A stretch of 64,000 nt of DNA. It comes from Leucobacter sp. OLIS6 (GTDB taxonomy: Bacteria; Actinomycetota; Actinomycetes; Actinomycetales; Microbacteriaceae). The DNA lies in assembly GCF_002752355.1 (NCBI RefSeq), contig NZ_MRAV01000003.1:1-64000 (forward strand), given 5' to 3'. A program made the translations under genes and the position numbers. Under the pieces are notes generated by a model, which ran no database searches, had not been told where the DNA came from, and saw only the letters and a list, made by a program, of their open reading frames with translations. Shown in pieces: positions 10,205 through 63,729 of this stretch (position 1 is the stretch's first letter; the number at the start of each line of letters is the position of its first letter).

Positions 10205-10235
10205 TCGTCCCAGCCTAGCGCCGGGCGCGGCGGCC

Positions 10236-11031: not shown

Positions 11032-11050
11032 ATGTCAATGACATTGACAT
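11032..11050. promoter_or_regulatory. TetR-type operator: perfect 9-1-9 inverted repeat
   Basis: ATGTCAATG-A-CATTGACAT is a perfect inverted repeat around a single base, the size typical of TetR-family operators. It overlaps the -35 box TTGACA of the rightward promoter and lies 91 bases from the tetR-type start, so one site could control both directions. Assignment to this repressor is inferred from position. Confidence 0.75.
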
Positions 11051-11073
11051 GAGCCGTGACTCCTGCGTATGGT
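11044..11073 (+). promoter_or_regulatory. sigma-A-type promoter of the amidohydrolase/ABC operon
   Basis: TTGACA (11044-11049), an 18-base spacer and TATGGT (11068-11073) form a near-consensus promoter. The predicted start near 11080 leaves a leader of about 30 bases before ATG 11110 with its GGAGG. The right half of the palindromic operator covers the -35 box. Confidence 0.65.
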
Positions 11074-11109
11074 GCTGCTGAATCGATGACGATCAGCCCG
11101 GAGGACGCC

Positions 11110-12828
11110 ATGCCCGAAACCGCAGCCCGCACCGCCCAGCCCGAGACGGGACCGGGCGCGCCCCGGGTCGACACCGTCCTCGAGAACGGCTGGATCTACA
11201 CCGGCACCGAGGAGACGCCGCACCGCGGCGGCATCGCGATCGCCGACGGCCGGATCCTCTCGACCGACCCCGCCGAGGTCGCCCGGCTGGCCGAGATCGC
11301 CGCCGAGCGGATCGACCTCGCCGGCCGCCTGCTCGTCCCGGGCTTCCAGGACGCCCACGTGCACCCCGTCAGCGGCGGCGTCGAGCTGCTCAGCTGCGAC
11401 CTGACCGGCTGCGATACGGCCGAGGAGACCGTCGAGACCATCCGCGCCTACGCCGAGGCCCACCCCGAACTCGACTGGATCCTCGGCGCCGGCTGGTCGA
11501 TGGACATGTTCCCCGGCGGCACCCCGACCCGCGAACTGCTCGACGCGGTCGTCCCCGACCGCCCGGTGCTCCTCGAGAACCGCGATCACCACGGCGCGTG
11601 GGCGAACTCCCGCGCGTTCGAGGTCGCCGGGATCGACGCGCACACCCCCGACCCCGCGGACGGCCGCTTCGAGCGCCGCCCCGACGGCACCCCCGCGGGC
11701 ACCGCGCACGAGGGCGCGATGAATCTCTTCGACCACGTGCGCCCCCGCCCGACCGAGGACGCCGCCTACGCGGGCCTCCTCGCGGCCCAGGACTACCTGC
11801 TCTCCCACGGCATCACCGCGTGGCAGGACGCCGCCGTCGGCGTCTTCATGGGCAGCCTCGACACCCTCCCGATCTACCGTCGCGCGGTGCGCGAGGGCAC
11901 CCTGGCCGTCCGGGTGCGCGGCGCCCAGTGGTGGGATCGCGCCAACGGCGAGGGCCAGCTCGCCGACGTCCTCGCCCGGCGCGACGAGGTCGCGGCGGAA
12001 ACGGATCCCGATCGCTTCTCGATCGCGAGCGTCAAGGTGATGGTCGACGGCGTGGCCGAGAACCAGACCGCGGCCATGCACGACGCCTACAAGGACCCGC
12101 ACGGTCACACCACGAGCAATCGCGGCATCTCGTTCTTCGACCCCACCGAGATGACCGAGTTCGTGACCGAGCTCGACGCGAACGGCGTCCAGGTGCACTT
12201 CCACGCCCTCGGCGATCGCGCCGTGACCGAGGCGCTGAACGCGCTCGAGGCGGCCCGGGCGGCGAACGGCGACACCGGCAACCGGCACCACCTCGCGCAC
12301 TTGCAGCTCGTGCGGCAGGCCGATCTGCCCCGCTTCGCCGAGCTCGGCGCGACCGCCAACCTGCAGGCACTCTGGGCCTGCCACGAGGACCAGCTCGACC
12401 AGCTCACGCTGCCGTTCCTGCGCGACGACGCCGAACGCGACCACTACCCCTTCGGCGAGCTGGTCGCTGCCGGCGCGCAGCTCGCCGCCGGCAGCGACTG
12501 GTCGGTGTCGACGCCCGACCCGATCGCGGCGATCCACATCGCGGTGAACCGACGTTCTCCCGGGTCCGAGCTGTCGCAGCTCGGACCCGACTCGCAGAAG
12601 CTCACCCTGAAGCAGGCCCTCGACGCCTACACGCAGGGCACGGCACGGGTGAACCACCTCGACCACGCGACCGGAACGCTCGAGCCCGGCAAGTACGCCG
12701 ACTTCGCGATCCTCGACCGCAACCTCTTCGAGCTGCCCGCGGCCGAGTTGCACGGTGCGCGGATCGACGAGACCTGGATCGACGGCGCGCGCCGGTTCCG
12801 CCGCGCCGCGGACGGGGCGGTCGCGTGA
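11110..12828 (+). CDS. YtcJ-type amidohydrolase (family 3), second copy
   Basis: Metal-dependent amide or imide hydrolase, 572 aa. Seen: FQDAHVHPVSGG with HxH at about 83/85, SVKVMVDGVAENQTA (bridging Lys region), VHFHALGDRAV and HHLAHLQLV histidines, and AAGSDWSVSTPDP with the catalytic-type Asp. ATG 11110 was chosen because GGAGG sits 5 bases upstream; earlier in-frame ATGs at 11056 and 11086 have no ribosome site and would precede the predicted transcription start or lie right beside it. First gene of a five-gene operon with a peptide-type ABC importer, so the importer probably supplies its substrate. Paralogous in type to the gene at 2692-4356. Confidence 0.85.
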   Translation: MPETAARTAQPETGPGAPRVDTVLENGWIYTGTEETPHRGGIAIADGRILSTDPAEVARLAEIAAERIDLAGRLLVPGFQDAHVHPVSGGVELLSCDLTGCDTAEETVETIRAYAEAHPELDWILGAGWSMDMFPGGTPTRELLDAVVPDRPVLLENRDHHGAWANSRAFEVAGIDAHTPDPADGRFERRPDGTPAGTAHEGAMNLFDHVRPRPTEDAAYAGLLAAQDYLLSHGITAWQDAAVGVFMGSLDTLPIYRRAVREGTLAVRVRGAQWWDRANGEGQLADVLARRDEVAAETDPDRFSIASVKVMVDGVAENQTAAMHDAYKDPHGHTTSNRGISFFDPTEMTEFVTELDANGVQVHFHALGDRAVTEALNALEAARAANGDTGNRHHLAHLQLVRQADLPRFAELGATANLQALWACHEDQLDQLTLPFLRDDAERDHYPFGELVAAGAQLAAGSDWSVSTPDPIAAIHIAVNRRSPGSELSQLGPDSQKLTLKQALDAYTQGTARVNHLDHATGTLEPGKYADFAILDRNLFELPAAELHGARIDETWIDGARRFRRAADGAVA

Positions 12829-14459
12829 GGCGGCGGCTGAGCCGCGCGATCGCCGGGGCCGGCGTCGCGGCGGTCGCCCTCGCCGCGCTCACGGGCTGCG
12901 GCCAGAGCGCGGTCGGCAAGCAGGCCGGCAGCTACGAGCTCACCGCGCACACGCCGGCTGCGAAGGGCGGCATCGACTCCTTCACATGGGCGCTCGCGAC
13001 CGAGCCGTTCTCGCTCGACCCGGCCTACGCCTTCGACTACGCCGACAACACCGTGCTGTCGAACATGTGCGAGTCGCTGCTGCGCTGGAACTCGGACCTC
13101 TCGGTCTCGCCCGGGCTCGCGACGAAGGTCGATCACCCGGATCCGCAGACCTGGGTCTACACGATCCGCGAGGGCGTGAAGTTCCACGACGGCAGCCTCA
13201 TGCGCCCGAGCGACGTCGTGTTCTCGCTCGAGCACCACCTCGACCCCGAAGTCGGATCCTTCTGGTTCGACACGTTCAAGAACGTCGACTCGATCCGCCA
13301 GACGAGCGCCGATCAGGTCACGGTGCACACGAAGATCCCCGATCCGTCGTTCAACAAGCTGATGTCGGCCGCGCCGGGCGTCGTGTTCTCGGAGAAGGCC
13401 GCGAAGGCGGCCGGACGCGACTACGGCAACGCCTCCACGGGCGTCGACTGCACGGGCCCCTTCACATTCAAGGAGTGGCGCTCGGGCGAATCGATCACGA
13501 TGGAGCGCTTCGCCGACTACTGGGATCCCGAGTACCGGGCGAAGGCGGAACAGGTGCGGTTCGTGATCCTCAACGACCCGAATGCGCGCGTGAACGCGCT
13601 GCGCACGGGCGAGATCGACGGATCCTGGCAGGTGCCGACCAACGCCATCGACCTGATGCGCGCGAGCGACACCGGAAAGATGTACTTCGGCGTCAACACG
13701 ACCGTGCAGAGCCTCATCGTCGGCGACATGCAGGGCCCGCTCGGCGACGTGCGCGTGCGCAAGGCGCTCGCGCTCTCCCTCGACCGGCAGGCCCTCATCA
13801 AGGCTGCCGTGCAGGGGTACGCGAAGCCCACCGATGCCCTGACCACCAAGTCGGTCTGGACCGACGCGAGCTCCGAGACGATCACCCGGGCCTTCGACCA
13901 GCTGCCGAAGCTCGACTACGACCTCGCCGAGGCGAAACGCCTCGTCAAGGAGGCCGGAGCCGAGGGCAAGAAGATCACCTACGTGACCGCCCCCATCGAC
14001 TCGTCGTTCGATGTGATCTCGCAGGCCGTCGCATCGGCGGGCAAGGAGATCGGGCTCGACATCCGCATCGAGACCCGCACACCCAACGCGTACACGCTGC
14101 TGTTCTCGGACCCGAACGCGGTCAAGGGCGTCGACCTGTTCACCACGCAGTGGTACCTGTCGAGCACCGATCCGCTCGAGATGTACGCGGTGATCCGCAC
14201 CGGGGAGTTCTCGAACTACGGCCACTGGTCTGACCCCGCGTACGACGCCCTCACCAACCGCGCGCTCGTCACCGACGACGGCGGCGAGCGCGCGAAGCTC
14301 TCGGCACAGGTGCAGCGGCTCGCCACCGAGCAGCTGCCGTGGATCCCGCTGTTCGAGATCCCCACGGGCCTGTGGCTCGGCAAGAAGATCACGGGCGTCG
14401 ACCCCTCGATCTCCTACATGTACGCGCCGTGGGCCGCGAAGATCGGAAAGGCGGACTGA
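12825..14459 (+). CDS. ABC importer substrate-binding lipoprotein (SBP family 5)
   Basis: Extracytoplasmic receptor of a dipeptide/oligopeptide-type importer, 544 aa. It begins with a basic n-region, a hydrophobic stretch and the lipobox LTGC (Cys at about 25). The mature part shows the family 5 hallmarks: FSLDPAYAFDYADNTV, the MCESLLRW segment and the KFHDGSLMRPSDVVFS motif. The start is GTG at 12825, overlapping the amidohydrolase stop as GTGA, so translation is coupled. Family 5 receptors bind peptides but also opines, nickel complexes, glycosides and amides; given the amidohydrolase partner, a small amide ligand is plausible. Confidence 0.9.
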   Translation: MRRRLSRAIAGAGVAAVALAALTGCGQSAVGKQAGSYELTAHTPAAKGGIDSFTWALATEPFSLDPAYAFDYADNTVLSNMCESLLRWNSDLSVSPGLATKVDHPDPQTWVYTIREGVKFHDGSLMRPSDVVFSLEHHLDPEVGSFWFDTFKNVDSIRQTSADQVTVHTKIPDPSFNKLMSAAPGVVFSEKAAKAAGRDYGNASTGVDCTGPFTFKEWRSGESITMERFADYWDPEYRAKAEQVRFVILNDPNARVNALRTGEIDGSWQVPTNAIDLMRASDTGKMYFGVNTTVQSLIVGDMQGPLGDVRVRKALALSLDRQALIKAAVQGYAKPTDALTTKSVWTDASSETITRAFDQLPKLDYDLAEAKRLVKEAGAEGKKITYVTAPIDSSFDVISQAVASAGKEIGLDIRIETRTPNAYTLLFSDPNAVKGVDLFTTQWYLSSTDPLEMYAVIRTGEFSNYGHWSDPAYDALTNRALVTDDGGERAKLSAQVQRLATEQLPWIPLFEIPTGLWLGKKITGVDPSISYMYAPWAAKIGKAD

Positions 14460-51687: not shown

Positions 51688-51842
51688 GCGTCGCATCCTC
51701 TCCGTCCGGCGCCCGCCGCGCGAGCGAGCGGCGCCGCGGGTCTGCCCGTACCGGCAGCGCGGGCCGCCTGAGCGCCGCGTTGCACGTGAAACGCCGTCAG
51801 TCTATCGACGGAGGCTCCACCGACGCGGTCGCCACCGGTCTT

Positions 51843-51890
51843 GAAATGTTTGTTTCGATTATTGCAGGCATTCGGTTTGCGTGAAATACT
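51843..51890 (+). promoter_or_regulatory. promoter of the S51 peptidase gene with GAAA-N6-TTTC element
   Basis: GAAATGTTTGTTTC (51843-51856) is followed by TTGCAG (51862-51867), a 17-base spacer and AATACT (51885-51890), 40 bases before the ATG. The inverted repeat is shared with 47796-47809. Confidence 0.55.
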
Positions 51891-51930
51891 TGCGCCGTCC
51901 ACCCCTCAACGACGAGACCGGAGATCCCGC

Positions 51931-53961
51931 ATGCCCCTTCCCCCACGCCGCGCGCGCCTCGGCACCGCCGTCGCCGTCGCGCTCACCGCGGGCGCGCTCT
52001 GCGCCACCGCCATCGCCCCCGCCGCGACGGCCGCACCGCAGCCGCGCGCCGCCGAGCCGAACGCACCGGCGGCACCGGCTACGCCGACGGCGTCCACCGC
52101 GCAGAACGGCAGCATCGTGCTGATCGGCGGAGCCATCAAGCCGGGCGAGGCCAACAGCGAGGCGATCATCCAGCGGATCGTCGACCTCGCGAAGCAGCAC
52201 GCGGGCGACAAGAAGCCCCGCATCGCGATCGTCACGACCGCCTCGGAGGTCGCGCCGAACGCCACCGAAGCGGCCGACGGCAACACCTACGACAACGCGA
52301 CCGCCAACGGTCTCTACTACTCCGACTGGTTCGCCGCGCACGGCGCCGACGTGTACCCGGTGCCCGTCGACGTGAACCCCGGGGAGGACTACCCCGGCGA
52401 TCCCTACAGCGCCGACAACGCGAAGAGCGCCGCCGTCGCGCAGGAGGTGCGCGACTCCGACGCCGTCTACTTCGGCGGCGGCGATCAGATCAACTACGTC
52501 CGCGCGTTCATGGACTGCACCGCGCCCGACCAGGCCGCGGCCGACATCTACGCGTTCACCTCCTGCACCGACACCCCAGTCATGGCCGCGATCCGCGGGG
52601 TCGTCGAGTCGGGCGGCGTGACCGCCGGCACGAGCGCCGGCCTCACGATCCAGCAGGGCGCCGACATGATCTCGGGCGGGGACCCCTACCCCTCGTGGCG
52701 CGACGGCGCGACCGTCGGCTGGTTCGAGGACGACCGTCTCGCCTCGATCCCGTCGGGCGGCTTCGGCTTCTTCACCGAGGGCATGCTCGACTCCCACTTC
52801 GCGCGCCGCGACCGCCAGCCCCGCATCGTGCGCCTCGCGATCGCCACGGGCCACGACCGCAGCTTCGGCGTGGAGGAGAAGACCGCGCTCGTCGTGGATC
52901 GCGCCGCCCGCACCGGCGAGGTGATCGGGCAGCTCGGAGCCAGCCTGCTCGATACGAGCGCCGCGACCTCCGACGGACGCAACGCCGCCGGCGTGCGGTA
53001 CTCCTACTTCACGACCGGATCCACCATCGACTTCGCGACCGGCGCGATCACCCTCGCGGGCACGGCGCACAGCGGGGCCGGATCCGCCGAGGCGCCCGCG
53101 GCGCCCACCGACATCTGGGGCTCGTACGAGTGCGAGGGCGGCATCTTCGGAACGCTGGACCTGGCGCAGGGACTCGTGAAGTCCTCGGCGTCGACCGCGA
53201 CCGGCGACACCTGCGATTCGCCGGCCGAGTCCCCGCGCTTCCGCACCACCTTCACCCGCACGGCGGACACGCGGTGGAACGATGACGGCGGTTTCACCGA
53301 CCTCGCCATGAGCATCACCGGGATCCCCTCGTTCTCGGCCGCGGCGCGCGCCACCGGATCGACCGGCACCACGAACCCGCAGGTCCCCGCGGGTTCGCAG
53401 GCCGGGATCACCGTGACCGTGACCAACACCGGTAGCACCCCGCTCACCGGGTTCCGGATCGCCTCCGATGCGTCGGTCTCGTCCGCAGCGGCGGCTTCGG
53501 ATCCGGCGTCCAACGCGGTCGTCGCCCCCGGCGGCACCCTGCAGCTGCAGACGACCCGCACCGTCGCGAAGGGCTCGCAGACCTTCGCTCTGCGGATCAT
53601 CGCGACCGCCGTCGATGCGAACGGAGCCGAGCTCGGCGTCGCGACCGCACCGCAGACCGCGTCGATCACGTTCGTCGGGGTCGGTTCGGGCGCCGAGGCG
53701 AGTGCGAACGCCGGTGCGAACGCGAACGGGTCGAGCGATTCGGGTGGATCGAGCTCGGACGCGAAGGGATCGGCGACCGGCAGCACGTCGGCGGGCGCGA
53801 ACGGGGCGGCAGACGGGACGGGAGCCGGTGCCAAGGGCCAGGGCTCGCTCGCGCAGACCGGCACCCCCGCGGACGGCCTCGCGCTTCCCGCTGCGGGCAT
53901 CCTGCTGCTCGCGGGAGCCGCCGCGCTGATCGCCCGCGCACGCCTCCGCGCCCGCGCGTAG
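51931..53961 (+). CDS. secreted, sortase-anchored cyanophycinase-like peptidase (S51)
   Basis: 676 aa. Signal peptide at about 1-35 (AXA-like end TAAPA region), then an S51 serine peptidase domain (about 58-400): SIVLIGGAIKPGE, GGGDQINYVRAF and the nucleophile elbow AGTSAG with Ser at about 235, followed by FGFFTEGMLDSHFARRDRQPR. A beta-rich domain (about 470-600, TVTNTGSTPLTGFRI) follows. The end is LAQTG (about 640-644), a hydrophobic stretch and Arg-rich tail, the LAXTG class E sorting signal of actinomycetes. S51 enzymes cut cyanophycin or acidic dipeptides. Start ATG has GGAG 7 bases upstream. Confidence 0.85.
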   Translation: MPLPPRRARLGTAVAVALTAGALCATAIAPAATAAPQPRAAEPNAPAAPATPTASTAQNGSIVLIGGAIKPGEANSEAIIQRIVDLAKQHAGDKKPRIAIVTTASEVAPNATEAADGNTYDNATANGLYYSDWFAAHGADVYPVPVDVNPGEDYPGDPYSADNAKSAAVAQEVRDSDAVYFGGGDQINYVRAFMDCTAPDQAAADIYAFTSCTDTPVMAAIRGVVESGGVTAGTSAGLTIQQGADMISGGDPYPSWRDGATVGWFEDDRLASIPSGGFGFFTEGMLDSHFARRDRQPRIVRLAIATGHDRSFGVEEKTALVVDRAARTGEVIGQLGASLLDTSAATSDGRNAAGVRYSYFTTGSTIDFATGAITLAGTAHSGAGSAEAPAAPTDIWGSYECEGGIFGTLDLAQGLVKSSASTATGDTCDSPAESPRFRTTFTRTADTRWNDDGGFTDLAMSITGIPSFSAAARATGSTGTTNPQVPAGSQAGITVTVTNTGSTPLTGFRIASDASVSSAAAASDPASNAVVAPGGTLQLQTTRTVAKGSQTFALRIIATAVDANGAELGVATAPQTASITFVGVGSGAEASANAGANANGSSDSGGSSSDAKGSATGSTSAGANGAADGTGAGAKGQGSLAQTGTPADGLALPAAGILLLAGAAALIARARLRARA

Positions 53962-54241: not shown

Positions 54242-55375
54242 CTAGTCTCCGAAGCGCTCGGCTCCGCGAGCGACGAGCTCCGCGGGCGATCCCGCCCGGT
54301 ATTCGAGCCGGCCCCGTTCGAGGTCCAGGCCGATCGTCAGCAGCGTCGTCCACTGATCGTGCGGCGGCAGCGACGGGTCCGGCCGCATGCACACCGGCGC
54401 GTGCGCACCCTCGGGCCCGCAGAAATCAGCGGCCCGTTCCTCGATGCTCGCCCCGGCGCCGCGCAGATCCCCGAGGCCCCCGATCCGCGAGAGGTGCGCG
54501 AACCGCGTCCGCGTCGTGGAGGCGGCGCTCGCGGCTTCTCCCGCGGCGAGCTCGGGCGCCAAGAAGTGATTGGTGTGCACGAGCACCCCGTCGGGGTCCG
54601 GGAGCACCTCGGCGACCCGCTCCGGCGAGATCTCGAAGCAGACCGCACGCCGTGCACCGCGGTCGGCCACGACGGTGAGCACCGTCGACGCGCTCACCGG
54701 AGCGGACCTGATGATCGACGCGGCCTCCTCGACGGTGCTCGCCTCGTCCAGCACCCGGCGCGCGATCGCGTGCACGGGCACTCCGCCGGCGTCCGTGTCG
54801 CTCGCGTGATGCAGGATGTTGAAGTGGACCCCGAGTCCGGCATCGTTGACGCCGATCTTTCCGAGCATCCCCGCTTCGGTGAACAGCCGCACGCGCCCCA
54901 CGCGACCCACGCGGCCACGACCACGACCGCGCTCGGCCTCCGGGGGATCGGGGGCGACGGAGAGCAGCAGTCCGGTCGGGCACAGGTCCGCGTGCCAGTC
55001 CCAGGTCTGCAGGGTCAGCGGGGATCGAGCGCTTTCCGGCGCGAGGACCAGGGTGGAGCATTCCCCTTCGCGATCGGGTTCGCCCGCGGCGAGGATCTCG
55101 GTGCGCGCGTTGAGCGCCGCGAGTTCGAGAGTCGGCACGCCACCCGCCGCCGCCGTGGCTTCGATCTCCTGCGCGAGGCCGGGAGCCCAGGCGCGCAGGG
55201 CCGCGAGGCTGCGCTCCGCGATCCCGTCGACCCGGGCCCGTGAGAGCCCGCTCAGCGCGAAGAACTCGAGGTATCTCGCGACTGTGTCGCGGATCTCGGC
55301 GCCGAAGCGCGTTCCGATCTCCGCTCCCCGTTGCTCCGGCCCGTGTCCCTCGATCTCGGCGGTTCTGATCTGCAC
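54242..55375 (-). CDS. C45-family Ntn hydrolase / acyltransferase
   Basis: 377 aa protein of the penicillin-V/isopenicillin-N acyltransferase-like C45 group, which self-cleave before a Cys that becomes the nucleophile. The likely site is GECSTLV with Cys at about 106. Downstream: TLQTWDWHADL, EAGMLGKIGVNDAGLGVHFN and the THNHFL-like VHTNHFL motif, all C45 marks. A loop at about 145-160 carries RGRGRGRVGRVGRV repeats. Starts with GTG; AAGGAGG lies 6 bases upstream. It is the last gene of the nylC operon (73-base gap), so probably hydrolyses or transfers an acyl amide. Confidence 0.82.
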   Translation of the reverse strand: MQIRTAEIEGHGPEQRGAEIGTRFGAEIRDTVARYLEFFALSGLSRARVDGIAERSLAALRAWAPGLAQEIEATAAAGGVPTLELAALNARTEILAAGEPDREGECSTLVLAPESARSPLTLQTWDWHADLCPTGLLLSVAPDPPEAERGRGRGRVGRVGRVRLFTEAGMLGKIGVNDAGLGVHFNILHHASDTDAGGVPVHAIARRVLDEASTVEEAASIIRSAPVSASTVLTVVADRGARRAVCFEISPERVAEVLPDPDGVLVHTNHFLAPELAAGEAASAASTTRTRFAHLSRIGGLGDLRGAGASIEERAADFCGPEGAHAPVCMRPDPSLPPHDQWTTLLTIGLDLERGRLEYRAGSPAELVARGAERFGD

Positions 55376-55448
55376 GCCGATCCTCCTTCCTGCGGGGTCC
55401 TCCCGCGCTCGCGCCGGTCGACTCGCCCGGCGCGATCCCTCGACCGAT

Positions 55449-56516
55449 CTACTTCGCTGCTTCGAGCAGCGCGTCCCACATCACCTCGGACGCGATCGCG
55501 CCGAGCGCGGTCGCGTTGACCGACAGTCGTCCGCGCGAGGAGTCCGGCGTAGCGGGGAGCTCGATTTCGTCGGTCGTGACCGCGAAGAGGGTGTCTCCGT
55601 CCATATCGGTGTGGAACGGCTGGATCCCGCGGTGCATGGAGCTGTGCACCTGGCGCGCGAACTGGCCGAGCTCGGTCGCGCTCATCCTCACGTTCGTGAC
55701 GAGCGCACTGATGGTCGTATTGCCGGCCTGGGTGACGGGCGGCACCCGCTCGGCGAACGCCTCCTGGTAGTCGTAGACGGGGTGCCGTCGCTCCCCCGTG
55801 GCGGCATCGTAGTTCCCGCGCACCACGGCGCCCGAGCGGTCGACGATCACTCCGACCGGGTTCGGCACGACCACCGCGAGGATCCGCACATCGCCGAGCT
55901 GCCGGAAGGCCGCACCCTGACCCGTGATCTCGGTGCGCCCCCAGTCCACCTTTCCGGAGGAGGCGCTCATGCCCGCGCCTGCGCGCCCCTGGGCGAACTC
56001 GCCCTCGACGGCGTGCTCGAGCGCCGCACGGCCCAGCGCCTTGTCGGGGTAGACGGCGGTCGAGCGGGCGGAGAAGTCGTAGATGATGGCGGAGGACACG
56101 AGCTGCAGATCCGCGAATCCGGTGCGCTGCTCCGCGCGCTGCAGCAGCAGATCGCCGACGCCCGCCGCGGCCTCCAGCCCGTACACCGATCCGCCGGCGA
56201 GGCAGATGGCGTGGTTGAAGTCGTACCCTCCCGAGAGGCCGACGGCACCGCCGCGCGCATCGACGGCGGTGCGTGCTCCGGCCGGCAGGTGGATCACCGT
56301 GGCGCCCGTGGGCCCTTCCTCATAGTGGGCCGATCCGATGCGGACCCCGGGGAAGTCGAATCGGAGGGTGTCGCGGCCGGTGCTGCGGTGCGGCACGAGG
56401 TCGAAGTCGTCGTTGCCGGGGCCGCCGAAGACCGGCTGGCCGGCGAGCCGCGGGGCGGGATCGGGGACGATGCCGGAGTCGATCGCGCTGAGCGCGTGCG
56501 CAGGTGCGGTGTTCAT
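55449..56516 (-). CDS. nylC: 6-aminohexanoate-oligomer hydrolase NylC-type (P1-family Ntn hydrolase)
   Basis: 355 aa, the size I recall for NylC. Autocleavage is expected between N266 and T267 in AGNTTIS, freeing Thr267 as nucleophile. The other NylC catalytic positions fall at exactly the same numbers: Y146, K189, N219, D306 and D308. The text also has DFNHAICLAGGSVYGLEAAAG-like and ITGQGAAFRQLGDVRIL segments of the P1 family. NylC cuts nylon-6 oligomers internally; its natural substrate is unknown. It overlaps the upstream ATPase stop (ATGA), so it is translationally coupled to a peptide-type importer. Family-level call is very sure; the substrate is not. Confidence 0.9.
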   Translation of the reverse strand: MNTAPAHALSAIDSGIVPDPAPRLAGQPVFGGPGNDDFDLVPHRSTGRDTLRFDFPGVRIGSAHYEEGPTGATVIHLPAGARTAVDARGGAVGLSGGYDFNHAICLAGGSVYGLEAAAGVGDLLLQRAEQRTGFADLQLVSSAIIYDFSARSTAVYPDKALGRAALEHAVEGEFAQGRAGAGMSASSGKVDWGRTEITGQGAAFRQLGDVRILAVVVPNPVGVIVDRSGAVVRGNYDAATGERRHPVYDYQEAFAERVPPVTQAGNTTISALVTNVRMSATELGQFARQVHSSMHRGIQPFHTDMDGDTLFAVTTDEIELPATPDSSRGRLSVNATALGAIASEVMWDALLEAAK

Positions 56517-57292
56517 AGGGTCTCCAGGAGTTTCTGCGAGTAGGGATGGGTCGGAGTGCGGAAGAAGTCGTCCGTCGCGGCGGTCTCGACGAGGTCGCCG
56601 CGGTAGAGCACGGCCACGCGGTCGGCGACGCGGTGGACCGCCCCCAGGTCGTGCGAGATGAAGAGGGCGCCGAAGCGGTGCTCGAGCTGCAGGTCGCGGA
56701 TGAGCGCGAGGATCTGCATCTGCACCGCAACGTCGAGGGCGCTGACGGCCTCGTCGAAGACGATGAACCGCGGCTCGGTGATGAGCGCTCGGGCCACCGA
56801 GACACGCTGCCGCTGCCCGCCCGAGAGCTCGTGCGGATACCGCTCCGCGAGCGCGGGGTTGAGGCCGACCTGTTCGAGCATGCGCTGCACCCGCTGCCGC
56901 TGCTCGGAGCGGGAGAGCCCGGCGCGCACCACCGTGAGGGGTTCGCGCACCGACTCTCCGACGCGGCGGCGCGGGTTCAACGACCAGTGGGGATGCTGGA
57001 GCACGGCCTGCAGGGAGCCGGCCGTGGCCCGACGCGATCGGGGGAAGGGCGCGCCGAGCAGGCGGACCTCGCCCCGATCGGGTCGCCGCAGTCCCAGCGC
57101 GACCGCCGCGGTCGTCGTCTTGCCCGAGCCTGACTCGCCGACGAGCCCGAGGGTCTCGCCCGGGGCGACGGAGAGGCTGACGCCGTTCATCGCGCGCACC
57201 GTCCGGCGTTTGGCTCCGGCGCCGGAGGTGAACGCCACCTCGACGTCACGCAGTTCGAGCACGGGGCTCTCGCCCGTGGTGGGGTCGTTCAT
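56513..57292 (-). CDS. ABC importer ATPase, OppF/DppF type
   Basis: 259 aa. Walker A GESGSGKTT (about 44-52), RRRVGESVREPLTV, signature LSGGQRQRVSVA and FIVFDEAVSALDVA. It pairs with the next ATPase to power the importer. Overlaps both neighbours by 4 bases (ATGA). Confidence 0.93.
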   Translation of the reverse strand: MNDPTTGESPVLELRDVEVAFTSGAGAKRRTVRAMNGVSLSVAPGETLGLVGESGSGKTTTAAVALGLRRPDRGEVRLLGAPFPRSRRATAGSLQAVLQHPHWSLNPRRRVGESVREPLTVVRAGLSRSEQRQRVQRMLEQVGLNPALAERYPHELSGGQRQRVSVARALITEPRFIVFDEAVSALDVAVQMQILALIRDLQLEHRFGALFISHDLGAVHRVADRVAVLYRGDLVETAATDDFFRTPTHPYSQKLLETL

Positions 57293-58209
57293 CGCTGCTC
57301 CTCTGGGGTCGGCCCGGTACGGTCGGGACGGTCGGCGCGGTCGGTGCGGTCCGGCCGGTGCGGTCGGGTCGGCATCGCGGCGACGAGCGTGCGGGTGTAG
57401 TCGTCCTGCGGATCATCGAGCACGTTCGCGGTCGGGCCGTCCTCGACGATCCGACCGCGGTGCATCACGACGACGCGATCGCACCACCGCCGCACGGCGC
57501 CGAGGTCGTGGCTGATCCAGATGAGGCTCGCCCCGGAGCTCTCGACGACTTCGAACAGCAGCGCGAGGATCTCGTCCCGCACCTGCGCGTCGAGCGAGGC
57601 GGTGGGTTCGTCGGCGATCAGGATCCGCGGCTCCCGCGCCATCGCCAGGGCGATCGCGATGCGCTGGGCCATCCCGCCGGACACCTCGTGCGGGAAGAGC
57701 CGCAGGACGCGCGCCGGTTCCAGGATCCGGACCCGTTCGAGAAGCTGCGTCAGCGCGGGAGCATCGACCGGTTTGCCGAGCGGCTGCAGCGCCAGCTGGA
57801 GCTGGCGCCCGATCCGCATCGTCGGGTCGAGCGACGCGATCGGATCCTGCGGGATGAACCCCAGCGCCTCGCGGCGGAGAGCCCGCAGCCGGTCGGCGGC
57901 GAGGCCGTCGAGCCGCTGCCCCAGCACCTCCACCGTCCCCGCCGTGACCGTGCAGGCCCGCGGCAGGAGCCGCCCGATCGCCTGCGAGACCGTCGACTTG
58001 CCCGAGCCGGACTCGCCGATGATCGCGAGGCGCTCCCCGGCCGAGACCGTGAGGTCGATGTCCGCGAGCGCCGGAGCGACCCCGAGCCGCGTCCGGTATT
58101 CGGCGCAGAGTCCGCGGATCGAGACGGTCGGCGCTCCCGCAGCCGCACCGGAGACGACCGCGGCATCCGGCGCCGTCAGCCGGAGGACGTCTGCTGCGTT
58201 CGAGTTCAT
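57289..58209 (-). CDS. ABC importer ATPase, OppD/DppD type
   Basis: 306 aa. Walker A GESGSGKST, signature VSGGMAQRIAIA and ILIADEPTASLD. The C-terminus, where OppD usually carries its [4Fe-4S]/Cys motif, ends instead in a repeat-like Pro/Asp/Arg tail (HRPDRTDRADRPDRTGP) coded by a degenerate GGTCGG-rich repeat at about 57310-57365. ATG 58209 overlaps the permease stop. Confidence 0.92.
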   Translation of the reverse strand: MNSNAADVLRLTAPDAAVVSGAAAGAPTVSIRGLCAEYRTRLGVAPALADIDLTVSAGERLAIIGESGSGKSTVSQAIGRLLPRACTVTAGTVEVLGQRLDGLAADRLRALRREALGFIPQDPIASLDPTMRIGRQLQLALQPLGKPVDAPALTQLLERVRILEPARVLRLFPHEVSGGMAQRIAIALAMAREPRILIADEPTASLDAQVRDEILALLFEVVESSGASLIWISHDLGAVRRWCDRVVVMHRGRIVEDGPTANVLDDPQDDYTRTLVAAMPTRPHRPDRTDRADRPDRTGPTPEEQR

Positions 58210-59078
58210 ACGAGGCTCCTCGTCTCGCGGGGATCGAGGCGATCGCGCATCGCGTCCCCGATCAGGTTGATGGAGAGGATCGCGACGACCAGGACGATCG
58301 CCGGCGCGAAGAGCAGCCAGGGCGCCTGGACCATGTAGCTGCCGCCCTCCTGGATCAGCAGGCCGAGCGACGAGCCCGGCAGCTGCACGCCGTAGCCGAG
58401 GAAGCTCAGCCCGCCCTCGACGAGGATGCCGACCGACAGGGCGTAGGTGCCCTGCACCGCGATGGTGCCGCTCACGTTCGGCAGCAGGTGCCGGAACAGG
58501 ATCACCGGAGCGGAGACGCCGCTGATCCGGGCGGTCGTGACGAAGTCGCGCTGGGCGACGGCCATCGCCGCCGAGCTGACCATGCGGGTCATCAGCGGCA
58601 CGGTGACGAGCACGATGCTCGAGAGCGCCGCCGCCTGCCCGGGCCCGATGACCGCGGCGATGAGGATCGCGAGCACGATCGAGGGGAAGGAGTAGAGCAC
58701 GTCGACGACGCGCATGATGCCCTCGCGCGCCCAGCCGCCGGCGTACCCCGCGACCAGGCCGAGCACGACGCTGATCACGGCCGTGCACAGCACCGCGACG
58801 GTCGACAGCACGAGCGTGGTGCCGATCCCTTCGAGCAGGCGGGGCAGCAGCGAGCGCCCGAGCGCGTCGGTCCCGAGCGGGAAGAGCGTCGTCGGCGCGC
58901 TGAGCCGGGGGCCGACGATGCGCTGCGGGTCGCCGGCGAAGGGGACGACCGCGGCGACGACCGCGACCGCGACGATCAGACCGAGCACACTCGCCGACGC
59001 GATGAGGAGCGGATCCCGCGGCGGCCGGACCCGGTCCGGGTGCTTGCGCCGGACGAGCGGGAGCGAGTAGGTGGTCAT
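58206..59078 (-). CDS. ABC importer permease, OppC/DppC type
   Basis: 290 aa, about six helices. FPLGTDALGRSLLPRLLEG and the coupling loop ARISGVSAPVILFRHLLPNV are typical of DppC. It overlaps both the upstream permease gene and the ATPase gene by 4 bases. Confidence 0.93.
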   Translation of the reverse strand: MTTYSLPLVRRKHPDRVRPPRDPLLIASASVLGLIVAVAVVAAVVPFAGDPQRIVGPRLSAPTTLFPLGTDALGRSLLPRLLEGIGTTLVLSTVAVLCTAVISVVLGLVAGYAGGWAREGIMRVVDVLYSFPSIVLAILIAAVIGPGQAAALSSIVLVTVPLMTRMVSSAAMAVAQRDFVTTARISGVSAPVILFRHLLPNVSGTIAVQGTYALSVGILVEGGLSFLGYGVQLPGSSLGLLIQEGGSYMVQAPWLLFAPAIVLVVAILSINLIGDAMRDRLDPRETRSLV

Positions 59079-60046
59079 GATCGTGCCTTCCCGGTGACGG
59101 CGACCCGCGGGTCGAGGGCGCTCGTGACGAGGTCGAGCACGAGGCTGACGGTCACGAACACGGTTGCTGCGAACAGCACGGTGGCCTGCACGACGGCGAA
59201 GTCCCGCCGACCGAGGCCCGTCACCATGAACGATCCGAGGCCCGGGATGTTGAACAGGGTCTCGACGATCACGGCCCCGCCGAGCAGGTACGCCGTGATG
59301 GTGCCGAGCAGGGTGAGGATCGGGATCCCGGCGTTGCGCAGCACGTGGTGCCTGACGATCCGCCAGGGGGTCTCGCCGCGCGCCACCGCGGCGGCGATGT
59401 GCGGTTCCACGAGCACCGACATGGTCGCGTCCCGGGTGGTCCTGGCCGCGGCCGCGACGCAGAACACCGAGAGCACGAGCGCCGGGAGCAGGAGGGCCTG
59501 CGCCGTGGCACCGAACCCCGATCCGACCTGCGCGAAGCCGCCGACCTGCAGACCGAGCGCGAGCCGGGAGAAGACGAAGATGACGATGCTGCCGAGCACG
59601 AACTCGGGCACGCTGATGCCGAGACCCGAGATCAGTCGCCCGAGCAGCCCTCCGCGCTTCGCTCCCGAGCGGACGCCCGTCCAGACGCCGAGCGGGACGC
59701 CGACGATCACGGTGACCGCCATCGCCATCGCGGCGAGCAGCGCGGTGACCGGGATCCGCTTCGCCAGCTCGTCCGCGACGGGGCTCTGCGTGACGAGGGA
59801 GACCCCGAGGTCGCCGCGGAGCACCTGACCGATCCACGCGAAGTACTGCACGAAGACGGGCTGGTCCAGGCCGTAGGTCCGAGCGAGCTCGGCTTTCGCC
59901 TCGGGGGTCGCGAAGGATCCCAGAATCATGTCCTCGAAGCTCCCCGGCATGAGCCGGACGGCCGCGAAGATGAGGATGGAGACGCCGAGGAGCGTGACGA
60001 GCGCGGTGAGCACCCGTCCGCCCGACCATCGGAGCATGCGGATCAT
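59075..60046 (-). CDS. ABC importer permease, OppB/DppB type
   Basis: 323 aa, about six helices. It has the N-terminal membrane helix, the RLMPGSFEDMILG loop, RTYGLDQPVFVQYFAWIGQVLRG-type text, and the coupling loop ARGETPWRIVRHHVLRNA. Starts 4 bases after the receptor gene stop. Confidence 0.93.
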   Translation of the reverse strand: MIRMLRWSGGRVLTALVTLLGVSILIFAAVRLMPGSFEDMILGSFATPEAKAELARTYGLDQPVFVQYFAWIGQVLRGDLGVSLVTQSPVADELAKRIPVTALLAAMAMAVTVIVGVPLGVWTGVRSGAKRGGLLGRLISGLGISVPEFVLGSIVIFVFSRLALGLQVGGFAQVGSGFGATAQALLLPALVLSVFCVAAAARTTRDATMSVLVEPHIAAAVARGETPWRIVRHHVLRNAGIPILTLLGTITAYLLGGAVIVETLFNIPGLGSFMVTGLGRRDFAVVQATVLFAATVFVTVSLVLDLVTSALDPRVAVTGKARS

Positions 60047-60050
60047 CGCG

Positions 60051-61691
60051 TCACTTCCCGACGACCCGGTAGTCGGTGAGGTTCCGCAGGATGTCGCCGT
60101 AGCCCTCGTTGCTCGCGATCGTCGGGCTCACCGATTTCGTGCTGTAGCCGATGATCGACGGGCGGTGCACGAGCGGGACGATCTCCGAGTACCGGTCGGC
60201 GCTGGCGCAGAGCTCGGTCAGGACCTTCGCGCGCTCCTTCGGGTCGAGCGTCGAGGCCCCCTGGTCGATGAGCCGGTTCAGGTCCTCGTGCACGCCGACG
60301 AAGCCCGTGTTGAAGAGCGCCTGCTCGGGGTTCCACCACTTGGTCACCATCGACGGGTCGCCGTATCCCGCGTACCAGCCGAGCGCCAGATCGAAGTCGC
60401 CCGGCTTCGCGGTCTCGATCTTCGCGCGGTATGTCGCCGCGTCGTACTGCTCGATCGTCACGGCGACGCCGACCTCGGCGAGCTGCTGCTGGATCAGCTG
60501 GGCCATCTGCGCGAGCACGGGCTCGGAGGTGTAGACCAGCAGGCTCAGCTTGCGGCCGCCGAGCTTCGCTCCGTCGATCGCGCGCTTCGCCTCCTCGACG
60601 GTCGCGCGCTCGGACGGCAGGTCGCCGACCGCGCACGCACCGGGCAGGTTCGACGGGGTGATCCCGGTCGGCGACGCGGTGCCCGCGAAGACGATGTCCG
60701 AGATCGCCTTGCGGTCGACGGCGGTGTTGATGGCGAAGCGCACGTCCTGGTCCTGCAACGGGGAGCCCGGGCGCTGGGAGTTCTCGTAGAGATAGTAGAA
60801 ATCGCTCTGCGTCTGGTTGACGACCTTGACGCCGGCGGTGCCGGCCAGCTGCGTGAGCGCGTCGATGTTCACGAAGTTCGCCATGCCTGCGCTGCCCTCC
60901 CGCAGTCCGGCCTGGCGCGTGGACTCCTGCGCGACGATCTGCAGCTCGAGGTCGCGGACGGGGATCTCGCCGCCGCGCCAAGCGGGGTTGGCCGCGAACT
61001 TCCAGGACTGATCCTGCCGGTGCGAGACCACGGTGTAGGGGCCGGTTCCGAGCATCGCGGTCTTGGGGTCGAGCGTCCCCTGCTCGATCTCCTGCATCGG
61101 CAGGATCGCGGCGGGAGTGTTGGCGAGCGCGGCGAGGAACGGCGCGTAGGGTGCGCTGAGCTTCACGGTCACCTCGTTCGCGCCGGTCGCCGTGATCGAC
61201 GACACAGGCCCCAGCTGACCGGTCCAGATACTCTTCCCGCCGGCGAGGCGCTTGAGGCTGCCGACCACGTCGGCGGTGCTGAGCGCCCGACCGTTCGAGA
61301 ATTTGGCGGAGGTGTCGATCGTGAAGACGTAGGTGGTGTCGTCCGGCCGCTTCCACGAGGTGGCGAGGCCGGGGGCGATCGCGAACTTCTCATCCGTGGT
61401 GACGAGCGTCTCGTAGACGAGCCCCATGATCATCCAGGACCGTGCGGTCTGGGCCGTCTGCGGGTCGAGCCCGTCGGCCTCGCTCGTGTCGTAGTCGAGC
61501 TGCACGGTGAGCGCGCCCGAGCCCGTGAGCGCGTCGTCGGCGACGGCCAGGAAGCCCGGGGCGGCCTCGTGCTGCTCGGTACCGCCCGCGGGAGCGCTCG
61601 GGGATGAGCAGGAGGACAGCGCGAGCGCGAGTCCGGCCGCGAACGCGGCGGCGGCGATGGCCCGTGAACGGACCCGATGTGTGTTCAGCAC
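60051..61691 (-). CDS. ABC importer substrate-binding lipoprotein (SBP family 5)
   Basis: 546 aa receptor. Lipobox LSSC with Cys at about 28. Mature part: GLDPQTAQTARSWMIMGLVYETLV, the SAKFSNGRALSTADVVGSL site motif and FAINTAVDRKAI, typical of peptide-type receptors. Starts with GTG at 61691; AAGGAG lies 8 bases upstream. First gene of the nylC operon and directly behind a LacI-type operator. If the operon degrades amide oligomers, this protein would capture them outside the cell. Confidence 0.92.
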   Translation of the reverse strand: MLNTHRVRSRAIAAAAFAAGLALALSSCSSPSAPAGGTEQHEAAPGFLAVADDALTGSGALTVQLDYDTSEADGLDPQTAQTARSWMIMGLVYETLVTTDEKFAIAPGLATSWKRPDDTTYVFTIDTSAKFSNGRALSTADVVGSLKRLAGGKSIWTGQLGPVSSITATGANEVTVKLSAPYAPFLAALANTPAAILPMQEIEQGTLDPKTAMLGTGPYTVVSHRQDQSWKFAANPAWRGGEIPVRDLELQIVAQESTRQAGLREGSAGMANFVNIDALTQLAGTAGVKVVNQTQSDFYYLYENSQRPGSPLQDQDVRFAINTAVDRKAISDIVFAGTASPTGITPSNLPGACAVGDLPSERATVEEAKRAIDGAKLGGRKLSLLVYTSEPVLAQMAQLIQQQLAEVGVAVTIEQYDAATYRAKIETAKPGDFDLALGWYAGYGDPSMVTKWWNPEQALFNTGFVGVHEDLNRLIDQGASTLDPKERAKVLTELCASADRYSEIVPLVHRPSIIGYSTKSVSPTIASNEGYGDILRNLTDYRVVGK

Positions 61692-61787
61692 CGGAGTGAC
61701 TCCTTCGACAGTCGGTGGTGCGGTCGGTGGTGCGGCAGTGCCCCGTGCGACCGGCGGAGGCTCCCCCTTCGGAGCTCCACGCGAGAC

Positions 61788-61816
61788 AAGCTACATACAC
61801 AAAACGTTTTATACAA
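61788..61816 (-). promoter_or_regulatory. nylC-operon promoter with LacI-type operator in the spacer
   Basis: On the minus strand: -35 TTGTAT (61811-61816), 17-base spacer, -10 TAGCTT (61788-61793). The spacer contains the perfect palindrome AAAACGTTTT (61801-61810), the CG-centred form typical of LacI-family operators. The LacI-family gene starts 105 bases away in the opposite direction. Confidence 0.8.
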
Positions 61817-61914
61817 GCGTTCCCCGAGACGGTTCACCCAGCCGCCGCCCGCCCCGACCGGCGCGACCCCGGGCGCTCCGGGCGCTATTCTCGGAGCAGA
61901 CCCCAGGGAGACCG

Positions 61915-62946
61915 ATGTCCGACTATCGCAGCGTCACGATCAAGGACGTCGCCGCGCGCGCGGGCGTCTCCATCACCGCCGTCTCGCACGCTCTGAACGA
62001 GAAGGGCACGCTCTCGGACGAGACCCGTCAGCGGATCCGCGAGATCGCGACGGCCATGGGGTACCAGGCCGACGCCCTCGCCCGGGGCCTCCGACGGTCG
62101 CGCATCGGCGTCATCGGGATCGTGCTCCGCCCGCTCGACGCGCTCGAAGATTACAGCCCGCCCGGGATCGACTACTTCCTGCGATTCGCCGGCGCCGCGG
62201 CGGTCAGCGCCCTGGGCAAGGGCCTGAGCCTGATGCACGTCGCCGACCTCGTCAGGGGCCCCGTGACTCCTCTGGCGTTCTCCCTCGACGGGTACATCGT
62301 CACCGATCCCGTTCGAGACGACCCGGTCGTCGCGTTGCTCGAACGGAGATCGATCCCCTACGTCACCCTCGGGCGGGATCTCAGCAAGCCCGAAGCGACG
62401 AACTGGGTGGCTTCCGCGGACGCCGATGCGGCCCGCCAGGGCCTGCGGCACCTCGAGGAGCAGGGAGCCCGATCGATCGCGTTCGTCGGCGGCACGGACG
62501 ACAACTCCTGGAACGCCGACGGCGAGACCGCCTACCGGGAGTGGTGCGAGCAGCACGGGGTGCGGCAGCGCATGTTCCGGCTGCCCGAGGGTCTCGGCGA
62601 GCAGGGCGGGCACGACCTCGTCCCGAACCTGCTCAACGGCGGGGTACCCGATGCGATCTACTCGCTCACCGGGCGGCACGCCGCCGGGATCCAGGCCGGC
62701 ATGCGCGAGCGGGGGCTTCTCGCCCCCGACGACTACCTGCTCGCCTGCGGCACCGACGCCGATCAGACGCGCACCGCCGATCCGCCGATCACCGCGATCG
62801 ACCTGCGCCCCGAGATCCTCGCACGGGAGACCGTCGATCTGCTCGCCGGCATCACCCGGGGCGAGGATCCCGCCGGACGCCGCATGGTGCAGTCCCGCCT
62901 CATCGTCCGACGGTCGTCCGACCGGGGCATCGCGCCCGGCGCCTAG
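61915..62946 (+). CDS. LacI-family repressor
   Basis: 343 aa. The N-terminal HTH (about 7-28, TIKDVAARAGVSITAVSHAL) and hinge helix (ADALARGLRRSRIG) are standard, followed by a periplasmic-binding-like effector domain (VGGTDDNSWNADGETAYREW and AIDLRPEILARETVDLL). ATG 61915 is chosen because AGGGAG lies 4 bases upstream and the HTH begins 7 residues in. Divergent from the nylC operon and convergent with the PaiB-like gene, both with AAAACGTTTT operators. Its effector is presumably a product of the imported substrate. The stop shares CTAG with the convergent gene. Confidence 0.93.
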   Translation: MSDYRSVTIKDVAARAGVSITAVSHALNEKGTLSDETRQRIREIATAMGYQADALARGLRRSRIGVIGIVLRPLDALEDYSPPGIDYFLRFAGAAAVSALGKGLSLMHVADLVRGPVTPLAFSLDGYIVTDPVRDDPVVALLERRSIPYVTLGRDLSKPEATNWVASADADAARQGLRHLEEQGARSIAFVGGTDDNSWNADGETAYREWCEQHGVRQRMFRLPEGLGEQGGHDLVPNLLNGGVPDAIYSLTGRHAAGIQAGMRERGLLAPDDYLLACGTDADQTRTADPPITAIDLRPEILARETVDLLAGITRGEDPAGRRMVQSRLIVRRSSDRGIAPGA

Positions 62947-63620
62947 TCCCCCTCGGAGTCGCCGGAGGCGGGGGCCTTGCGCGGTCGGGTCACTCCGACC
63001 TGCGCCATCAGCTCGGCCACGTCCGGGTGGCGATGATCCCCACCGAGCAGGTCCTCGCGCACGCGCTCGTGGACGTCCTTCGGCATGTCCTGACTGAGCT
63101 TGAACATGGCGGATTCCGTGTCGATGTCGATCGTGAACGAGACGACGCCGTGGAGGATCTTGCGGAACACCGCCTTCGACGGGTCCGGATTCCAGCGCTT
63201 CGTGCGGAGCCCCTCGAGCTGCTCGACCGTGCGCTCCACGACGGCCAGGTTCTCCTCCTCGGACTCGATCACCGAGATCCGGCCGGTCAGGTGCACGGTG
63301 GCGTAGTCGAGGGTCGGCACGGCCGGCGAGAAGTGGTAGGTGCTCGGGGAGACGTAGGCGTGCGAGGACGCGAAGACGAGCAGCGCGTCCGGTCGCTCCG
63401 CGAAGCGCCTCCAATGCTCGTTCGCCCGCCCGAGATGCCCCCAGAGACGGGTGCCGACGAGCGTCTCGCCGGGTTCCGCACCGGGCGGGAACACGATCGG
63501 GACGTGCGTGGCGAGGGGCGCGCCGTCGCTCGATGTCGCGACGACCGCGAACGGGTGATTCCTGACGAAATCGACGATGGCGCGACCCGATGGCGCGACG
63601 TAGCTCGAATAGGTGTGCAT
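62943..63620 (-). CDS. PaiB-like FMN-binding split-barrel protein
   Basis: 225 aa of the PaiB/transcriptional-regulator flavin family: FVRNHPFAVVATSSDGAPLATHVPIV at the start, GHLGRANEHWR, the FASSHAYVSPSTYHF segment and VPTLDYATVHLTGRI. The last about 75 residues (HGVVSFTIDIDTESAMFKLSQDMPKDV) match the PaiB C-terminus. PaiB proteins are linked to polyamine and sporulation control in Bacillus. Its promoter has the same LacI-type operator as the nylC operon, so it belongs to that regulon. Confidence 0.85.
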   Translation of the reverse strand: MHTYSSYVAPSGRAIVDFVRNHPFAVVATSSDGAPLATHVPIVFPPGAEPGETLVGTRLWGHLGRANEHWRRFAERPDALLVFASSHAYVSPSTYHFSPAVPTLDYATVHLTGRISVIESEEENLAVVERTVEQLEGLRTKRWNPDPSKAVFRKILHGVVSFTIDIDTESAMFKLSQDMPKDVHERVREDLLGGDHRHPDVAELMAQVGVTRPRKAPASGDSEGD

Positions 63621-63700: not shown

Positions 63701-63729
63701 ACGCTAACAAAGTAAAACGTTTTATGCCA
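63701..63729 (-). promoter_or_regulatory. promoter of the PaiB-like gene with LacI-type operator
   Basis: On the minus strand: -35 TGGCAT (63724-63729), 17-base spacer, -10 TAGCGT (63701-63706). AAAACGTTTT (63714-63723) fills the spacer next to the -35 exactly as in the nylC promoter. Confidence 0.75.

Follow-up and report, generated by a model that had tools for sequence, protein, structure and literature searches.

NylC, the 6-aminohexanoate-oligomer hydrolase, is a textbook example of an enzyme whose target is a synthetic polymer. It is defined by endo-mode hydrolysis of 6-aminohexanoate oligomers whose degree of polymerization exceeds three. The characterized NylC proteins (from plasmid pOAD2 of Arthrobacter KI72 and from Agromyces KY5R and Kocuria KY2) are 355 residues long, and in the pOAD2-type set nylA and nylB are found near nylC. 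The 1995 paper on pOAD2 reportedly lists opp and penDE-like genes on the plasmid; penDE belongs to the C45 family. In Arthrobacter and Agromyces, according to the accessible part of PMC7019077, nylB and nylC share their region with Opp genes. NylC variants retrieved by a search at ~50% homology were active on nylon-6 in the portion of PMC10858056 that was available, and nylonase activity among NylC relatives is therefore partly known. Here, we describe a nylC gene within an importer operon in Leucobacter sp. OLIS6 (Microbacteriaceae). The stretch analyzed, referred to as the window, comprises 64,000 nucleotides (positions 1 to 64,000 of contig NZ_MRAV01000003.1); the genome spans 3.33 Mb in 22 contigs, with the operon on contig C3.

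We consider it likely that this locus is a LacI-repressed catabolic operon that imports and hydrolyzes an amide compound and that its lineage is ancestral to plasmid nylC; this assessment covers function and ancestry, with the exact substrate set apart. The results suggest that NylC performed a natural function before there was any nylon. Proximity to an importer was rejected as a novelty, as it is already reported for Arthrobacter and Agromyces in the accessible part of PMC7019077. No statement of a native NylC role or of a conserved operon was found in PMC5408104 or in the available portions of PMC6021441, PMC6752018, PMC11879879, and PMC13343204, and a literature search pairing NylC with Leucobacter gave no match. 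Wider conservation, a regulon, and a substrate clue were likewise not found in the literature searched, although the 1995 pOAD2 and 2007 Agromyces/Kocuria papers may cover parts of these findings. The arrangement is a further chromosomal example of the known nylC-opp association, of which the wider conservation, regulon, and substrate clue may be new. Plasmid NylC is now placed within an old, seemingly regulated chromosomal operon clade, and the natural role of the enzyme becomes directly testable through the conserved LacI regulon, the enzymes that accompany NylC, and the descent of the plasmid copy. The analysis narrows the natural substrates to a few candidates and also yields two predicted operator motifs and a coregulated partner enzyme.

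NylC and its conserved importer

The 355-residue NylC protein of the window has 306/355 residues (86.2%) in common with the crystal chain 5xyg, and it matched the NylC crystal chains, which represent several different NylC sequences, with 672 bits (E 1e-201). By this 86% identity it is a NylC ortholog. The sequence-only reading had relied instead on Y146, K189, N219, N266, T267, D306, and D308 occurring at the numbers known for NylC. All seven are present at those numbers and are invariant in 29/29 importer-linked sequences, but most are common to the S58 family at large: among 30 general S58 proteins, N219, T267, D306, and D308 were present in all 30, N266 in 27, and K189 in 23. Y146 is the sole clade-typical residue among the seven (29/29 importer-linked sequences; Phe in 26/30 general S58 proteins). 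Residue numbers were thus rejected as proof of NylC, being nondiagnostic apart from Y146. Six other residues (E196, Q200, Q289, S293, M294, and F301) occur in 29/29 importer-linked sequences and are rare or absent in other S58 proteins.

When a profile built from 22 clade sequences was searched against the PDB, NylC scored 605 bits, followed by Nyl12 (264), 9cxr (156), 9yys (112), and ThnT (89). The S58 nylonases Nyl12 and 9cxr and the protein ThnT, although members of the same Pfam family, are thus distant from the NylC clade (264, 156, and 89 versus ~600 bits). No DmpA or BapA chain was listed up to E 10 in this search of a database that, we presume, contains both; the closest characterized relative is therefore NylC rather than one of these aminopeptidases.

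To assess the neighborhood, 34 loci with a NylC-clade gene of at least 47% identity were compared. These were the window, 20 loci from a first search, Nonomuraea gerenzanensis (L026), two Variovorax plasmids (L027 and L029), three further genomes of the same genus, six of the same family, and G257 (L039). L034 (the same as L023), L038 (the same as L011), and L001 to L004 and L025 (short copies of places in the window's own genome) were dropped from this count. The comparison set consisted of 30 general S58 loci, picked from 186 matched genomes where the flanks had room, with just 5 candidates scored per genome in the matching. Neither set includes L028, the own-genome paralog regions L031 to L033, or plasmid matches H7 to H13 (27 to 33% identity). 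Importers were recognized by tblastn with the window proteins (E 1e-12, within 9.5 kb), a procedure that very distant importers could escape.

A same-strand five-protein importer was present in 33 of the 34 clade loci, which span Actinomycetota and Variovorax, and no solute-binding protein (SBP) or permease match was found within 9.5 kb at any of the 30 general S58 loci. C45 was found in 29 clade loci, LacI in 31 (one of them distant), and the FMN_bind_2 gene (here, FMN-type) in 24. The distant LacI is a 28% homolog counted for L005, a contig that begins at the SBP; the LacI and FMN-type genes proper to that genome are on L099. L006 is truncated by a contig end, leaving a 26-residue LacI start below the threshold. 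In six non-Leucobacter genomes of the family, fetched after the pattern had been seen and encoding NylC 52 to 62% identical to that of the window, the importer, NylC, C45, and LacI were present in 6/6 and the FMN-type gene in 4/6. Mapped on a tree of 61 rows, the label for the importer required 3 changes compared to a shuffled mean of 20.6, and 0/500 shuffles gave a value as low, although near-copies in this tree favor such clustering. The exception among the 34 was L039 (51% identity), where LacI is present and the Opp-type importer and C45 are absent. The association of importer and hydrolase postulated from the window alone therefore extends across the clade.

Clade members were found in 11/54 genomes of the genus (a twelfth match being a weak 28% fragment), in 9/398 genomes of the family (E 1e-60), and, above 400 bits, in 2/396 genomes of the phylum, one of which is the window's. 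In all, 31 actinobacterial genomes were seen with the operon, and nylonase candidates that come with an importer could be drawn from them.

The importer shares its five-gene layout and Pfam domains with Opp/Dpp/Nik-type (peptide/nickel) ATP-binding cassette (ABC) importers: a family-5 SBP, two BPD permeases, and two OppD/F-type ATPases are encoded in one operon. The best listed NCBIfam equivalog scores of the window proteins, in contrast, fall far below the cutoffs of such importers.

Some loci vary in composition. L021, L022, L092, and L093 carry tandem NylC pairs (54 to 62% identical to the window NylC); their LacI gene is not divergent but follows C45 in the same orientation, and no FMN-type gene is nearby. 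On a Variovorax boronicumulans plasmid (L027, 2573-11526), the genes for the importer and a NylC-like protein (48%) are followed downstream by one for an M81/MlrC-type metallopeptidase, and another S58 gene is divergent; neither C45 nor LacI was matched at this locus. Luciferase-like monooxygenase and amidohydrolase genes stand beside the operon in several Leucobacter loci (for example, L007, 12320-13603, and L009, 11064-12716).

A predicted LacI regulon and the probable ancestry of plasmid nylC

The palindrome AAAACGTTTT occurs at three sites in the genome (six when both strands are listed), and a reversed control pattern gave 0. One site is between LacI and the SBP gene, and another is upstream of the FMN-type gene. 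The third, at C20:98834, is part of a second importer cluster, which ends in a C45 homolog (34%), and is flanked there by the SBP gene and a paralogous LacI (43%). The palindrome AAAWCGWTTT was found in 11 of 12 Leucobacter/Microcella loci, always in the LacI-SBP interval or immediately before the FMN-type gene; the remaining locus, L005, is cut at the SBP. Where a Leucobacter locus has its FMN-type gene outside the operon, the site precedes that gene (9/9). At the other actinobacterial clade loci, a different palindrome, GCCGGAWCGWTCCGGC, precedes the first operon gene in 19/20 cases, missing solely in L039, and none was found in 20 first-order Markov shuffles. Lineage-specific palindromes thus recur in relatives, and both a LacI helix-turn-helix and CG-centered palindromes before the regulated genes are present, as in LacI regulons. 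The operon and the FMN-type gene therefore seem to form a LacI regulon, with these sites as predicted operators.

The C20 cluster with the third site (L090, 8720-16267) has the order LacI-SBP-permeases-ATPases-C45 and contains no NylC match. Several other Leucobacter loci have an importer-C45 end like that of L090 next to their FMN-type gene.

In a tree of 23 sequences, the crystallized NylC nests among Microbacteriaceae chromosomal copies, grouping with those of a Microcella metagenome-assembled genome (96.3%), L. celer (93.2%), and the same-genus genome G050 (91.8%) with support of 99/98. The Microcella contig is just 7.4 kb and could be misbinned. In G009, G025, and G050, all of the same genus, the operon is located on contigs of 2.8 to 3.5 Mb and is therefore chromosomal. 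These relationships suggest that the nylC of nylon-waste bacterial plasmids was probably recruited from the Microbacteriaceae operon lineage. The window protein has the length, catalytic residues, and cleavage site of the characterized NylC proteins; unlike pOAD2-type nylC, the relatives' operon is chromosomal, on long contigs, and comes with a LacI regulator and predicted operators. A further difference from the pOAD2-type nylA/nylB/nylC set is that no NylB-like (beta-lactamase family) or NylA-like (amidase) family match was found on contig C3; genome-wide, there are 8 beta-lactamase-family and 9 amidase matches, none of them on that contig. A search of PLSDB for pOAD2 or a near-identical plasmid returned 2 weak records in the near search and 11 in the protein search, none from Arthrobacter.

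The ratio of nonsynonymous to synonymous substitution rates (dN/dS) was calculated for the window versus six relatives (five for C45). The ranges were 0.10 to 0.17 for NylC, 0.16 to 0.19 for ATPase 2, 0.18 to 0.26 for permease 2, 0.21 to 0.25 for permease 1, 0.24 to 0.33 for ATPase 1, 0.27 to 0.41 for the SBP, and 0.33 to 0.41 for C45. NylC had the lowest value of the seven operon genes in 4/6 comparisons. Since the operon is shared by lineages with NylC just 52 to 62% identical to that of the window, and since NylC is under purifying selection, the operon is far older than nylon. A recent adaptation in which industrial nylon oligomers spread the cluster would fit the hydrolysis of 6-aminohexanoate oligomers by NylC (accessible part of PMC6021441) and the patchy presence in the genus (11/54, excluding the weak 28% match), but given this age, the selection on NylC, and the absence of NylB-like or NylA-like family matches on C3, we regard it as highly improbable.

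Candidate substrates and competing explanations

The FMN-type protein provides one clue to the substrate. Its top PDB match is NohD, an N-hydroxylamine dehydratase (174 bits), with piperazate synthase next (144) and PaiB well behind (58), so that it is nearer in sequence to NohD and piperazate synthase than to PaiB. NohD is 46% identical to the window protein over 206 residues, and 43 columns are invariant across 25 sequences that include NohD. NohD is also 85 to 86% identical to the product of a gene between nylC and C45 in the Nonomuraea loci L013 and L014; the name is that of the depositors, and the NohD chains differ from each other at several residues and may be engineered. At the level of sequence, the FMN-type protein resembles N-hydroxylamine dehydratase and piperazate synthase.

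A second clue comes from the Streptosporangiaceae. A copper amine oxidase (CuAO) gene is located between LacI and SBP in 11/11 of these loci, and an aldehyde dehydrogenase (ALDH) gene (10/11) and a glutaryl-CoA dehydrogenase (GCDH) gene (9/11) follow C45. The single CuAO searched was closest to phenylethylamine oxidases (802 bits; lysyl oxidases, 116), and the single GCDH searched matched 3sf6 with 629 bits. Each of the five Nonomuraea genomes with a linked GCDH that were searched has a second GCDH (64 to 65%) elsewhere, and the linked gene is therefore an extra copy. In Thermocatellispora, the nylC locus has no FMN-type or C45 gene; away from the nylC operon (L098, 6869-12598), ALDH, FMN-type, and C45 genes stand in a row, with GCDH ~1.3 kb beyond. 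GCDH was rejected as specific proof, being on the opposite strand and linked solely in Nonomuraea-type loci. It may be taken as supporting evidence, strengthened by its extra-copy status and by the Thermocatellispora cluster. Deduction of the substrate from ALDH was dropped because it has no close solved relative.

A third clue is L039 (3481-10372), where the NylC-clade gene and a divergent LacI are beside genes for a Peripla_BP_2 protein, a FecCD permease, and an ABC ATPase. The best NCBIfam models for the Peripla_BP_2 protein were enterobactin, ferric dicitrate, and hydroxamate binding proteins, and those for the permease were Fe-siderophore and FhuB models, all below the cutoffs. This iron-siderophore-type importer is one locus, noticed rather than sought, and the scan for iron genes covered the flanks of L039 alone. 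Finally, the available part of PMC13343204 indicates that NylC prefers amides with the amine part at the outer end. Together, these clues point to release by NylC and C45 of a C5 amine or N-hydroxylamine that would end as glutaryl-CoA, and an oligoamide derived from lysine or cadaverine is the most likely native substrate.

The sequence-only reading had proposed import and intracellular hydrolysis of amide oligomers or beta/omega-amino-acid peptides as a native context for NylC. The importer context is well supported, but in our reading lysine- or cadaverine-derived amides (perhaps hydroxamates) are favored over beta-peptides or nylon oligomers by the NohD-like coregulated gene and by the amine oxidase, ALDH, and GCDH genes found in relatives. 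Under the proposed mechanism, the presence of an amide compound would release LacI from its operators, and the importer would carry the compound into the cell. NylC, which is probably cytosolic because it has no obvious signal peptide, would cleave internal amide bonds, and C45 would cleave a second amide or a hydroxamate bond. The products would enter amine catabolism, for which the enzymes (CuAO, ALDH, and the extra GCDH) are encoded in or beside the same cluster in Streptosporangiaceae.

In desferrioxamines, succinate units alternate with N-hydroxycadaverine, so that these compounds amount to a naturally occurring nylon. The leading candidate, to which we give somewhat less than even chances, is that NylC evolved to break down natural polyamide siderophores of this type; our confidence rose slightly because L039 adjoins an iron-siderophore-type importer. 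The LacI-controlled operon would import the siderophore, NylC would cut its amide bonds and C45 its hydroxamate bonds, the NohD-like protein would dehydrate the freed N-hydroxycadaverine, and amine oxidase, ALDH, and GCDH would complete the breakdown of the C5 unit. If so, nylon degradation is a side activity of a siderophore-eating enzyme that was captured on a plasmid.

It is less probable that the operon serves beta- or omega-amino-acid peptides, with NylC acting on imported short peptides in the manner of a beta-aminopeptidase. Beta-aminopeptidases do belong to S58, the importer is of the Opp/Dpp type, and an M81/MlrC-type peptidase and another S58 protein are also encoded in the Variovorax cluster; yet the clade profile retrieved no DmpA or BapA chain even at E 10, and such a diet would not require the amine oxidase, GCDH, or NohD-like partner.

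The backbone of epsilon-poly-lysine is that of nylon-6, to which an alpha-amino group is added. An operon for the uptake and breakdown of lysine polymers or peptides with epsilon linkages, in which NylC would cut internal amides and the lysine would be oxidized by the amine oxidase and ALDH via 2-oxoadipate to glutaryl-CoA, would fit the shared backbone, the lysine route, the CuAO, ALDH, and extra GCDH of Streptosporangiaceae, and the endo-mode of NylC on oligomers (accessible part of PMC6021441). We consider it unlikely, since it leaves the coregulated N-hydroxylamine-dehydratase-like gene unexplained and since the CuAO is closest to phenylethylamine oxidases (lysyl oxidases trailing at the score given above); a literature search pairing nylon hydrolase with poly-lysine gave no match.

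Comparably doubtful is the scavenging of N-acyl or peptidyl aromatic amines, in which NylC would free phenylethylamine, tyramine, or histamine for oxidation by CuAO. The similarity of the one CuAO searched to phenylethylamine oxidases, the presence of CuAO at every Streptosporangiaceae locus, and the preference of NylC for amides with an outer amine part (available portion of PMC13343204) are as this explanation predicts, but GCDH and the N-hydroxylamine-dehydratase-like gene have no place in it, and no CuAO is found beside the Leucobacter operons.

Several observations weigh against our preferred reading of a LacI-controlled operon for lysine- or cadaverine-derived amides. As to the importer, a 39% relative outside the 34 loci, Sinorhizobium L028, has none; it joins Variovorax in the 61-row tree with weak support (87/39). 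One of the three own-genome S58 paralogs adjoins an Opp-type importer (convergently), and S58/Opp adjacency is therefore not entirely exclusive to NylC. Among solved structures, the SBP was nearest to AgaA at just 94 bits, and deduction of the substrate from the SBP was dropped because of this distance. As to selection, ATPase 2 had a lower dN/dS than NylC for L035 (0.158 versus 0.159) and L008 (0.159 versus 0.168). As to the regulon, neither operator motif was found at the second Thermocatellispora site, and none was found at L039. As to the FMN-type partner, three chains with the designation FMN-binding protein or regulator (139, 134, and 110 bits) score between NohD and PaiB; the gene is not nearby at the four tandem-NylC loci, L016, L039, or both Variovorax loci; and no match at E 1e-15 was found in 4/10 genomes searched. 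As to the downstream enzymes, no CuAO, ALDH, or GCDH match was found near the Leucobacter operons, and the single CuAO of the window's genome is elsewhere and 42% identical to that of Nonomuraea.

In the own-genome region L031 (~9132-13864, on C18), the S58 gene is convergent with an Opp-type importer 31 to 44% identical to that of the window.

Layout of the locus

The operon occupies the minus strand, with a divergent LacI gene and an FMN_bind_2 gene convergent with LacI, together spanning 54242-63620 (Table 1). All gene positions of the sequence-only reading were recovered, as were its LacI regulator and its second Ntn hydrolase, 73 nt beyond NylC; a start for LacI at 61915, within a longer open reading frame from 61507, and the seeming inclusion of the FMN_bind_2 gene in the regulon were added. 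The proposed translational coupling to a complete importer was borne out by ATGA overlaps at permease 1/permease 2, permease 2/ATPase 1, ATPase 1/ATPase 2, and ATPase 2/NylC, with a 4-nt gap instead between SBP and permease 1.

TABLE 1 Features of the nylC locus and its predicted operators
Feature	Coordinates	Strand	Evidence
C45 autoproteolytic acyltransferase/hydrolase, second Ntn hydrolase	54242..55375	-	Pfam AAT, NCBIfam NF040521
NylC ortholog, S58 Ntn amide hydrolase, autocleavage N266/T267	55449..56516	-	Identity to 5xyg, tree, dN/dS, Pfam Peptidase_S58
ATPase 2, OppF/DppF type	56513..57292	-	Pfam ABC_tran
ATPase 1, OppD/NikD type	57289..58209	-	Pfam ABC_tran, on N-terminally shorter stretch
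Permease 2, OppC/DppC type	58206..59078	-	Pfam BPD_transp_1
Permease 1, OppB/DppB type	59075..60046	-	Pfam BPD_transp_1 + BPD_transp_1_N
SBP, family-5 solute-binding protein, first gene of the operon	60051..61691	-	Pfam SBP_bac_5, E 2.6e-65
Predicted palindromic LacI-type operator AAAACGTTTT between LacI and SBP	61801..61810	.	3 genome sites, control 0
LacI-family regulator, divergent from the operon	61915..62946	+	Pfam LacI + Peripla_BP_3
FMN_bind_2 (PaiB-like) gene, FMN-type	62943..63620	-	Pfam FMN_bind_2
Second predicted operator AAAACGTTTT, upstream of the FMN_bind_2 gene	63714..63723	.	Motif search

The start of ATPase 1 was set at the ATG at 58209, which overlaps the permease 2 stop. Its top listed NCBIfam models were NikD, CntF, CntD, and OppD, and those of ATPase 2 were dipeptide/oligopeptide ATP-binding proteins, all under the cutoffs. 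The N terminus of the SBP is lipoprotein-like, as judged by eye. The C45 protein scored 226.6 bits with NF040521 (cutoff, 85), and its cysteine 106, in GECST, aligns with the GCT of 2x1d. We take this cysteine to be the nucleophile.

A gene convergent with the operon (51841-53961, plus strand) was not counted as an operon partner, with no homolog at the compared loci. Its product gave a weak Peptidase_S51 (cyanophycinase-like) match (E 5.7e-4, under the cutoff) and appears to carry a secretion signal, with a hydrophobic tail at the C terminus.

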